Assembly (NCBI GenBank): GCA_003164595.1
Contig: PLTT01000007.1
Span: 62,001 to 126,000, forward strand
Origin: Candidatus Saccharimonadota bacterium
Lineage (GTDB): Bacteria; Patescibacteriota; Saccharimonadia; Saccharimonadales; UBA4665
Direction of reading: 5' to 3'
Length of the DNA: 64,000 bases
The notes under the pieces: model-generated
What the model was told of the DNA's origin: nothing
The model's input: only the letters and a program-made list of their open reading frames with translations
Database searches by the model: none
Program-made: the position numbers and the translations under genes
Shown: piece by piece, positions 20,141 to 23,049 of the stretch
Numbering within the stretch: position 1 is the first letter of the stretch
Layout of the letters: each line of letters begins with the position of its first letter

Positions 20141-20425
20141 GTGAAGTACTTTGATTGGAATGATATAAAGAATACGTACCTTAAAACTGAAAGAGGCATT
20201 GGCTTCGATGATGTTCAGGCGGCGGTTGAGGGGGGTAAAATACTCGCCGATATAGAACATCCCCTGAAGTCACAGTACCCCAACCAAAGAGTGTTTATCA
20301 TTGAGTTTAACGACTATGTTTACATAGTCCCATACGTTGAAGACGCGACAAAGATTTTTTTAAAAACAATTTACCCGAGCCGAAAAATGACCAAAAAGTA
20401 TTTAAGAGGAGGAAAGAATATATGA
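20141..20425 (+). CDS. BrnT-like toxin candidate
   Basis: A 94-aa protein (MKYFDWNDIKNTYLKTERGI...) with the pattern of BrnT/DUF4258-type RelE-fold toxins. It has an N-terminal helix containing an acidic WND, then GIGFDDVQAAVEGG. Strand pairs FIIEFNDYVYIVPYV and KIFLKTIYPSRKMTKKYL follow, the last matching the C-terminal strand rich in basic residues. It starts with a leaderless GTG and overlaps the next gene by 4 nt (ATGA). Toxin before antitoxin is the BrnTA order. The function is inferred from fold pattern and context. Confidence 0.75.
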   Translation: MKYFDWNDIKNTYLKTERGIGFDDVQAAVEGGKILADIEHPLKSQYPNQRVFIIEFNDYVYIVPYVEDATKIFLKTIYPSRKMTKKYLRGGKNI

Positions 20426-20694
20426 AATACTATGAACTAGAGGCAGAAGAAAAAAAGGAGCTTGAGGCAATCGAGAGAGCCATAGAAAGTGGCGAGATTA
20501 AAAGCGTGCCTGATTTCACTAAACGTAAAAAAGAATTACAACAGATTGCCAAGAGCACTCTTAATAAAACAAGAAACATTAATATAAGACTTTCTGAGAG
20601 AGATTTGTATAAGCTAAAGAGCAAAGCCATTGAGGAAGGCATCCCTTATCAGACACTGGCTTCTTCTATTCTGCACAAATCGACAGTAAGATAA
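20422..20694 (+). CDS. Antitoxin candidate of the BrnA/CopG type
   Basis: A 90-aa protein with an acidic N-terminal helix (LEAEEKKELEAIERAIESGE) that could wrap the toxin. The C-terminal ribbon-helix-helix region NINIRLSERDLYKLKSKAI, followed by EGIPYQTLASSILHK, is a typical antitoxin layout (RISERDL...AIEEGIPYQTLI). It overlaps the toxin gene by 4 nt and has a strong GGAGG ribosome binding site inside the toxin gene, which would favour antitoxin excess. It should bind the promoter at 20106-20134. Confidence 0.82.
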   Translation: MKYYELEAEEKKELEAIERAIESGEIKSVPDFTKRKKELQQIAKSTLNKTRNINIRLSERDLYKLKSKAIEEGIPYQTLASSILHKSTVR

Positions 20695-20723: not shown

Positions 20724-21257
20724 CTAGGCTGTTACAAGATACTTTCGGCCAGCTTTTATAGCTAACCAGTAGACACCGAAGAACATTGCTGTATAGAACA
20801 TATCGCTCATGGCAGTGTTGCGGAAGAAAGGTAGTGCCATGGTGAAACAATAGGCTAGTCCGCTTAGAGTGTGGCTATACATACCGCCAAACATCCAGAC
20901 TGCAAAGTTGGTAACCGCAAAGAAGAAAATCGATGACGAGAAAGTTATACCTATCCCCTTAATGAAACTTGGTTTTTTCATATAGTAGCTACTGGCTAGA
21001 GCAATCAACATATAACATCCCCAGATAATGGGCATGATGTTATAAAAACCAATAATGGCATCCGAGGCCACCATAACACTCAAAGGTATCCAGATGGCTA
21101 ATTTACGAGGCAATACTGCCCCTCCAAAAATAGCTATAGCTGCAACTGGCGCAAAGTTAGCCGGGTGCGGTAGAAGACGCATCAGCGCACCTAAGACAAT
21201 TAAGGTAACTGCAATGGTTATTTGTAGATGTTTGTCTTTCATTATTGTAACTTCCAA
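20724..21257 (-). CDS. DUF6580-like membrane protein, putative cobalamin transporter S-component
   Basis: A 177-aa protein with five or six membrane helices. It carries the N-terminal pattern LLPHPANFAPVAAIAIFGGAVL and then WIPLSVMVASDAIIGFY, which I associate with DUF6580, a family resembling ECF-transporter substrate-binding subunits. It overlaps the DUF4430 gene by 16 nt and shares its cobalamin riboswitch, so uptake of B12 or a precursor is the likely job. The energising EcfA/A'/T subunits are not in the window. An ATG six codons in (MKDKHL, 21242) is an alternative start. The stated start is TTG- or ATG-ambiguous (MEVTIMKD). Confidence 0.75.
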   Translation of the reverse strand: MEVTIMKDKHLQITIAVTLIVLGALMRLLPHPANFAPVAAIAIFGGAVLPRKLAIWIPLSVMVASDAIIGFYNIMPIIWGCYMLIALASSYYMKKPSFIKGIGITFSSSIFFFAVTNFAVWMFGGMYSHTLSGLAYCFTMALPFFRNTAMSDMFYTAMFFGVYWLAIKAGRKYLVTA

Positions 21258-21622
21258 GTAAGAGTATCACTATTTTTGGTTACATACGAGCTGGCACCCA
21301 TAGCCGCTTCTTTGCCGTTAATATAGAATGTCCAGTACTTTGGGCCGTTACCAACAACACCGTTGATCGAGGTTACGAAATCACCAAATGAATAGTGCTT
21401 GACGCCGACCGTTACGTGTCTTTCAAGTAGCGTCATGGCATTTACGCCTGCTTGGCCCTTGTAGCTAACTTCACTAAGTTGATTCTGGCTATTAACAACA
21501 ACCGACAACTTGTGACTAGGCGTATTGGCAACATATGCCCAGCTTCCAAGACCGACAGCTATCGCCAGGATTACGATGACACCGACAATGATGTTTATTT
21601 TTGACTTGGCTAACTTACTCAT
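21242..21622 (-). CDS. DUF4430 (transcobalamin-like) exported protein
   Basis: A 126-aa protein with an N-terminal membrane segment (IIVGVIVILAIAVGLGSWAYV, about residues 10-30). A DUF4430 domain follows, with VNAMTLLERH, SFGDFVTSINGVVG, YWTFYINGKEAAMGASSYV and DTLTWKLQ at the end. DUF4430 is related to the C-terminal domain of transcobalamin/intrinsic factor and binds cobalamin-like ligands in those proteins. The frame is open to 21658, but the ATG at 21622 directly precedes the signal anchor. It lies 3' of a cobalamin riboswitch and overlaps the S-component gene, so a surface B12-capture role is likely. Confidence 0.85.
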   Translation of the reverse strand: MSKLAKSKINIIVGVIVILAIAVGLGSWAYVANTPSHKLSVVVNSQNQLSEVSYKGQAGVNAMTLLERHVTVGVKHYSFGDFVTSINGVVGNGPKYWTFYINGKEAAMGASSYVTKNSDTLTWKLQ

Positions 21623-21704
21623 GATTTGTTCTTTCTGCCCGGTCGCTATAGTTATCATCTGGCAAAAAAGAAATTATATATCTTGCTCGAGATTCCTAAA
21701 GAGA

Positions 21705-21836
21705 CTAAAGGCTATCGCTGTATCGGACTCATGGGTTTTGATCTAACCCATATACCGTTGCGGCACAGTTCCCGAATTGCACGGGATTCCAGCGTTATTA
21801 ATTGTTAAGTGATCTCACAATAACACAAGTTGCCTA
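21705..21836 (-). promoter_or_regulatory. Cobalamin (B12) riboswitch
   Basis: On the minus strand the sequence contains the conserved core GTGCAATTCGGGAACTGTGC followed by CGCAACGGT (within 21754-21793), preceded by GCTGGAATCCC. A hairpin ATGGGTT/AACCCAT follows, then GAGTCCGATACAGC (21717-21730), the B12-box-like part. AGGC (around 21831-21834) and GCCT (around 21707-21712) can close helix P1. It lies 83 nt before the DUF4430 ATG. No clear intrinsic terminator follows it, so control of translation is more likely than attenuation. Confidence 0.93.
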
Positions 21837-21877
21837 CACTATATGTAGTATTATTTGCACCGACTGAGACGCTATTT

Positions 21878-22588
21878 CTATAAGGCCTTGAAGCTGGTTA
21901 GCATATCGATAAACATCGCCTCGTCAGGGACTATGTTGCGGTCGGAGAATAGAAAGAAATAACTATGAGTGCCAGATGTTGGCCCGGTAATGGTTGTCGT
22001 ATTGATCTGTGAACCAATCGTGCCGGTGCCAACCTGATTATCTGTAAACCTGGCAAGGTCACATATAAAATTAACACTGTCCCATTCGCTTTCCTTGGGC
22101 GCCAGCAATTCAGCCTGAGCGTCATTTTGGGTTCCACCGGGCGTGAAATCTGAACAATTCTGCGACAACGTACCAACAACAAAGTGGTTACCGTCGGGCT
22201 GAATTGGTAGCTCGGCATTAACGGGTGTGGTGGCTGGAATGGTATCGATATAGATCTGCAGGATGCGATCAGAATAATATTTAGCAGTCGCCTGCCAGGT
22301 AATAGAATGGTCACTTGGTACATCAATTGAAGCGGTCTGCACCCAGTCTGATGGCAACTGAATGGTAAAGGTTGGCTCTTTGATGGTTATTACTGATGTT
22401 CCCGTTATAAGCTGCGGAACAATTACCGCTTTGCCAACTATAACTTTGTGTTTTGGTTGAAAATGGCTCCATAAGATAAATAACCCAATACAAACGCCAA
22501 CGACTACAACTGTGACTTCGGAGGCTCTAAGTAAAAAGTGACCAAATGGTCGACGCTTGCGAGCGGTATATTGATAAGTTTTTTTCAT
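21878..22588 (-). CDS. Membrane-anchored extracytoplasmic protein
   Basis: A 236-aa protein with a basic N-terminus, a membrane helix at about residues 26-44 (VTVVVVGVCIGLFILWSHF) and an extracytoplasmic domain of about 185 residues. Parts such as FTIQLPSDWVQTASIDVP and DRILQIYIDTIP suggest a beta-rich fold, and two cysteines (NCSDF, ICDLA) may pair. The family is not recognised. The start codon overlaps the stop of the LexA-like gene (ATGA, 4 nt), so its expression is coupled to that regulator. It is the only obvious co-transcribed partner. Confidence 0.75.
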   Translation of the reverse strand: MKKTYQYTARKRRPFGHFLLRASEVTVVVVGVCIGLFILWSHFQPKHKVIVGKAVIVPQLITGTSVITIKEPTFTIQLPSDWVQTASIDVPSDHSITWQATAKYYSDRILQIYIDTIPATTPVNAELPIQPDGNHFVVGTLSQNCSDFTPGGTQNDAQAELLAPKESEWDSVNFICDLARFTDNQVGTGTIGSQINTTTITGPTSGTHSYFFLFSDRNIVPDEAMFIDMLTSFKAL

Positions 22589-23049
22589 GTATTTTGGATA
22601 TGTTTGCGTAAATCAGCCAGCCGAGGAATAAAACTCTGGGCGGCACCATCAAGTCCGAGTACTTTAAGTGCCCCAACCAAAACGTAGAGTTGGTCGATCT
22701 CAGCAACCTCAGGACTAGCCGATTTCTCGGCAATATTAAAAAAATAATCCACTTTTTCAATCATCCATCTCTCTTCGCCGGGCTTTACTTGATTGGTTAT
22801 AATTTTGGTTTGAGGTTCTAGGCTTTGCGTTACTGCCAGCGACCGAGCGCTACGATCACGTTTTTGAAGCAGGCCACGCTTTATAAGGTTGTTAACATGC
22901 AAAGCAACAGTGGCAACTGAATTGTAATTTAGGCCTTTCATAATCTCGCGGTAGCTAGGGCTATAGCCATGTTCACTAACAAAGGCTTCGATGTAGGATA
23001 GAAGCTCCTTTTGTTTTTTTGTTGGTAGAACTGTTTGTTTTTCGTTCAT
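22585..23049 (-). CDS. LexA-type DNA-binding protein without the S24 peptidase domain
   Basis: A 154-aa regulator whose first 70 residues are a LexA winged helix (PTKKQKELLSYIEAF, GYSPSYREIMKGLNYNSVAT, ALHVNNLIKRGLL). The expected Ala-Gly cleavage site and Ser-Lys catalytic dyad are absent. The remaining 75 residues are instead helical (ERWMIEKVDYFFNIAEKSAS, IDQLYVLVGALKVLGLDG). It cannot self-cleave like LexA, so induction must work differently or be absent. The next gene downstream overlaps by 4 nt and encodes a membrane-anchored protein. The mRNA is leaderless. Confidence 0.85.
   Translation of the reverse strand: MNEKQTVLPTKKQKELLSYIEAFVSEHGYSPSYREIMKGLNYNSVATVALHVNNLIKRGLLQKRDRSARSLAVTQSLEPQTKIITNQVKPGEERWMIEKVDYFFNIAEKSASPEVAEIDQLYVLVGALKVLGLDGAAQSFIPRLADLRKHIQNT

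Follow-up and report, generated by a model that had tools for sequence, protein, structure and literature searches.

What do two proteins of families 'of unknown function', DUF4430 and DUF6580, do behind a cobalamin riboswitch in a Saccharibacteria genome, and could they provide the cell with B12? We addressed this question in a window of 64 kb (the whole stretch of DNA that was analysed) and in a set of 60 genomes composed of this genome and its relatives. The locus covers region 20724-21846 and all its parts lie on the minus strand, which the preliminary description had not given, in the order riboswitch, DUF4430, DUF6580 (Table 1). The span proposed earlier, 20724-21836, contains nearly all of them, but the aptamer reaches 10 bases beyond. 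From the sequence, the most likely start of the DUF4430 protein is the ATG at 21622 (MSK, where relatives begin MSR) rather than the start at 21658 of the ORF list. The DUF4430 stop codon TAA (21244-21242) and the DUF6580 start codon ATG (21242-21240) overlap by one base in TAATG, suggesting translational coupling.

Table 1. Features of the riboswitch-DUF4430-DUF6580 locus (positions in the window)
Feature	Position	Strand	Basis
Cobalamin riboswitch aptamer	21699..21846	(-)	RF00174, 32.1 bits, and covariation in 30 relatives
Short hairpin ATCT-CGAGCA-AGAT, 3′ of the aptamer	21676..21693 (approximate bounds)	(-)	Putatively L13-like, by position
Likely expression platform, TTTCTTTTTTGCC able to pair with GGGCAGAAAGAA	21629..21675	(-)	Local fold and analogy with relatives
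DUF4430 protein, 126 aa, N-terminal membrane anchor and transcobalamin beta-domain-like region	21242..21622	(-)	PF14478
DUF6580 membrane protein, 172 aa, S-component of CbrT kind	20724..21242	(-)	PF20221

Two neighbours of the locus can be mentioned here. At 20141-20694, on the plus strand, lies a small gene pair resembling a BrnT toxin and a CopG-type antitoxin, below Pfam cut-offs; between DUF6580 and nadD, it occupies the place held in relatives by a protein that we call X (see below). At 22585-23049, on the minus strand, a gene encodes a 154 aa protein with a LexA-type DNA-binding domain, below the NCBIfam LexA cut-off, and similar genes are found 5′ of the riboswitch in many relatives.

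The claim that a B12 riboswitch precedes the pair is borne out. The Cobalamin family RF00174 matches at 21846..21699 (-) with a score above its cut-off of 31.5 bits (E-value 2e-4 in the window and 7e-7 in the genome), and this is the sole RF00174 riboswitch of the genome (868 kb, 95% complete). The score is modest and, with a margin of just 0.6 bits, one could suspect a spurious call. However, the relatives back the identity: in an RNAalifold consensus of 30 related riboswitches, 14 of the 20 pairs show double-sided compensatory changes, which indicates that the riboswitch is not a chance match, and in many relatives the matches sit at the same position relative to the gene. We thus regard a spurious call as having a negligible probability. 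At E ≤ 0.01, RF00174 matches 50 of the 60 genomes, 16 of them over cut-off; at this threshold the search missed the riboswitches of loci L088 and L092, though the core motif is present in both.

How this riboswitch acts can be proposed from the leader. In relatives, the aptamer is followed by a hairpin with the loop CGAGCA, which recurs from one relative to the next on changing stems, and then, directly before the start codon, by a hairpin in which a CCCTC-like stretch can pair with the Shine-Dalgarno sequence (CCCTC..GAGGGTATTTTTATG). The window has the same arrangement in a less clear form: TTTCTTTTTTGCC can pair with GGGCAGAAAGAA, a purine-rich Shine-Dalgarno-like stretch before ATG 21622, but this pairing is weak, with a local fold of -8.4 kcal/mol that is on its own no better than shuffles. 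By analogy with the relatives, it is likely to be the expression platform. A pattern scan found no terminator in the leader, making transcriptional control less likely. Together with the anti-Shine-Dalgarno hairpins of the relatives, this favours translational repression by cobalamin, with the second gene coupled through TAATG, as the most likely mode. At low intracellular cobalamin, the ribosome-binding site of DUF4430 would be free, allowing translation of DUF4430 and, through coupling, of DUF6580; at high cobalamin, the riboswitch would hide this site. Both the direction and the level of regulation are here what we infer.

The second gene encodes a clear member of DUF6580 (PF20221, E 3e-45, 154.8 bits for a cut-off of 27). 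The preliminary description had likened this polytopic protein to an ECF substrate subunit, and two lines of evidence agree with it. First, a profile built from six DUF6580 proteins matches chain A of PDB 6fnp with an E-value of 0.0012, which is weak by sequence; this chain is the CbrT subunit, a proven B12 S-component, of the ECF-CbrT transporter from Lactobacillus delbrueckii (PDB 6FNP; PMC5997447). The other is the fold: when the AlphaFold2 model (pLDDT 85) was compared with the PDB using Foldseek, the first matches were the ECF S-components RibU, ThiT and FolT (prob up to 0.97, TM about 0.4-0.57, E not significant). In the DUF6580 tree, the window protein groups within a clade of Saccharibacteria (100/98) and that of genome G047 stands apart. 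A DUF6580 protein from a contig labelled Dormiibacterota (L095) also lies inside this clade, perhaps due to a binning error or a transfer.

The first gene encodes a DUF4430 protein (PF14478, E 9e-13, 48.9 bits for a cut-off of 23.8). Its translation shows a single hydrophobic stretch, at the N-terminus, is free of cysteine and hence has no lipobox. A profile of 20 DUF4430 proteins matches human transcobalamin-1 (4kki) with an E-value of 1e-6 and intrinsic factor with 1e-4, so that the earlier reading of an anchored transcobalamin-like domain holds. The alignment concerns the C-terminal part (beta domain) of transcobalamin-1; unlike transcobalamin and intrinsic factor, the window has no alpha/alpha toroid domain. 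In G047 and in several loci of the Magasanikbacteria type, a gene of its own between DUF4430 and DUF6580 encodes a toroid-like protein. The G047 locus (L064:3400-6421) thus reads riboswitch core, DUF4430, alpha/alpha toroid protein, DUF6580, with btuR nearby, and the two transcobalamin domains seem, from these sequences, to be split over two genes.

The two families go together. Within the 60 genomes, both are over cut-off in the same six, always close together, and a riboswitch lies upstream of the pair in all six (in G047, by its core motif and a weak match of 13.7 bits). We also examined 80 DUF6580 loci from named genomes, including 48 from Patescibacteria (CPR) and 27 from named non-CPR genomes: DUF4430 is upstream of DUF6580 in 42/48 CPR loci versus 0/27 non-CPR loci. 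The CPR pair is often beside genes for a class II ribonucleotide reductase and a corrinoid adenosyltransferase, NrdJ being nearby in 11 of the 48 CPR loci. Two Levybacteria loci, L102 and L107, have the order nrdJ - riboswitch - DUF4430 - DUF6580 - pduO; in L102, nrdR comes before nrdJ, and the nrdJ and pduO family calls are over cut-off. Cobalamin-clan riboswitches stand in front at L107 (AdoCbl-II, 45.6 bits) and L116 (AdoCbl, 52 bits). At a Bacteroidota locus (L143), DUF6580 has a cobalamin riboswitch on either side (74 and 79 bits) and is followed by a TonB receptor.

Does the cell have a use for B12? The genome encodes a B12-dependent enzyme of the kind that the preliminary description had pointed to, the class II ribonucleotide reductase NrdJ (NF005122, 1345 bits for a cut-off of 859), together with nrdR and the corrinoid adenosyltransferase BtuR (PF02572, 157 bits). 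Judged by the reductase and BtuR genes, this organism is in need of B12. The class II reductase model matches 58 of the 60 genomes (55 over cut-off) and BtuR is found in 57. A PduO-type adenosyltransferase is absent from all 60 relatives; BtuR stands in its place. As for a BtuC-type permease (BtuCDF), the sole FecCD match of this genome (G000:C6) turned out to be an ABC-3 zinc-type permease (194 versus 32 bits). The pair is lacking in 54/60 genomes although most of these have the same class II reductase, so that other uptake routes must exist. In one genome, at L179:1-4000 (G028:C37), class I nrdA and nrdB come after a cobalamin-clan riboswitch that scores 32.0 bits with AdoCbl-II (below the cut-off of 36.5), suggesting a B12-repressed backup ribonucleotide reductase.

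S-component transporters normally need an ATP-driven motor. EcfT (PF02361) was not found in this genome and is over cut-off in none of the 60. Across 287 Patescibacteria genomes, it is over cut-off in three, none of which has DUF6580, and in 0 of the 82 that do; the same model matched 10 of 14 control genomes. The pair should therefore not be called an ECF transporter, and DUF6580 is probably a solitary S-component. Of the B12 capture-and-uptake unit first suggested, the general idea is well supported by homology and gene context, but its reading as an ordinary ECF transporter is not. A precedent exists in BtuM, a solitary B12 S-component for which trapping by BtuR is the proposed driving force (PMC6072759), and we lean towards DUF6580 working in this way. 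The solitary mode is not assured, since CbrT from L. delbrueckii without its ECF module did not support growth of E. coli (PMC5997447). This requirement also speaks for an alternative in which DUF6580 uses an energising module missed by the family model, either an EcfT that has diverged or generic ABC ATPases that work with a different membrane protein. The absence of EcfT rests on one Pfam model, from which the protein could have diverged too far, and in a genome about 95% complete its gene could be in the missing 5%. On the other side, that model did recover EcfT in Patescibacteria and in most controls, never together with DUF6580 in the former, and DUF6580 is present in as many as 82 genomes. 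We consider such a hidden module unlikely.

Altogether, these results make it very probable that the pair is a two-gene module for B12 (corrinoid) capture and uptake under the control of a cobalamin riboswitch. The anchored DUF4430 domain would bind corrinoid, or hand it over, at the outer face of the membrane, and the DUF6580 S-component would bind it and carry it across. Inside, BtuR would adenosylate the corrinoid and NrdJ would use the product. Transport would then probably proceed by facilitated diffusion in which adenosylation traps the corrinoid, along the lines suggested for BtuM; we infer ligand binding, transport and this energy-free mode alike. The substrate could in principle be something other than cobalamin, such as another corrinoid, a B12 precursor (e.g. 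cobinamide) or cobalt: a riboswitch reports the end product and not the substrate, and ECF-CbrT also takes cobinamide (PMC5997447). The homology to transcobalamin and the context of adenosyltransferase and NrdJ argue for cobalamin, and we find this alternative improbable. More distant still is the idea that the pair transports nothing and serves at the surface as a sensor or in contact with a host, B12 being no more than its regulator. It would fit a small anchored surface domain in Saccharibacteria, a largely host-dependent group, but it accounts poorly for the homology to CbrT, the S-component fold and the pairing, in a NrdJ and adenosyltransferase context, over many CPR lineages; we give it very little credence.

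Returning to the proposed B12 uptake module, most relatives have another gene behind the same riboswitch. X lies directly behind the riboswitch, or behind the pair, in 35 of the 38 riboswitch loci examined. It is about 340-620 aa long with a C-terminal zinc-ribbon-like cysteine cluster, and a nadD-like gene follows in most loci; it occurs at riboswitch loci L038-L076, for instance at L050:1413-2564. Its profile matches 40/60 genomes, which include neither this genome nor G008, both having the pair instead. The full order riboswitch - DUF4430 - DUF6580 - X is present in G012, G029, L088 and L091. In G017:C2 (L047), an 80 aa reading frame between riboswitch and X begins like DUF4430 and ends like DUF6580, and is likely the remnant of a deleted pair. 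The gene after pduO in L102 also resembles X (profile comparison, 89.7% probability). X belongs to no Pfam family; a sequence search of the PDB gave no credible match, weak zinc-ribbon matches alone, and a fold search (model pLDDT 85) gave none.

A bolder proposal, which we rate below even and advance tentatively, is that DUF4430 and DUF6580 suffice as a B12 uptake system in Patescibacteria, independent of ATP, in which a transcobalamin-like surface trap feeds a solitary S-component and adenosylation traps the product, and that X, behind the same riboswitch, plays a second, undescribed part in acquiring or using B12 in most of the Saccharibacteria that lack the pair. Across many lineages of Patescibacteria, our analysis gives both DUF families a role in B12 uptake that can be put to the test. 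It also suggests a way in which a reduced cell may acquire the B12 on which its synthesis of DNA precursors depends. If transport without EcfT is true, DUF6580 would join BtuM as a second type of solitary S-component for B12. The analysis further draws attention to X, a protein family that most of the Saccharibacteria genomes examined have under a B12 riboswitch.

In the openly licensed papers searched, we found nothing relevant on this system in Patescibacteria or Saccharibacteria. Its general kind, a B12 S-component with a surface component, is known. Indeed, an 'additional lipoprotein component of putative cobalamin ECF transporter' is annotated in Lacticaseibacillus, where a DUF4430 gene adjoins the class II reductase gene rtpR (PMC9963975). 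The direct pairing singled out in the preliminary description is therefore notable in part; what is new is its EcfT-free, riboswitch-coupled and Patescibacteria-wide form. Like the lipoprotein of lactobacilli, the window DUF4430 protein would be a surface protein devoted to B12 uptake, but by its description it is set apart by a membrane anchor.

DUF6580 resembles the S-component of ECF-CbrT in profile and fold, and shares with it a B12 context of class II reductase and adenosyltransferase; the Levybacteria clusters even mirror the L. delbrueckii cluster nrdJ-cbrS-cbrT-pduO (PMC5997447). It differs from ECF-CbrT in that the searches here recovered no EcfT, that nrdJ and btuR are elsewhere in this genome, and that the riboswitch and DUF4430 stand directly in front of the S-component. 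BtuM (PMC6072759) is, like DUF6580, small and similar to S-components. It comes from organisms that lack an ECF module, to which the missing EcfT match here would correspond, and its gene is often a neighbour of btuR. DUF6580 differs from it by its pairing with DUF4430 and by its conserved residues: BtuM ligates cobalt with a cysteine, and in an alignment of 81 DUF6580 sequences no position with at least 85% conservation is a cysteine. His26 of the motif PHPxNFAP is invariant in these sequences, a result biased by one search pattern that contained it, and is a candidate to take the place of the BtuM cysteine as cobalt ligand.
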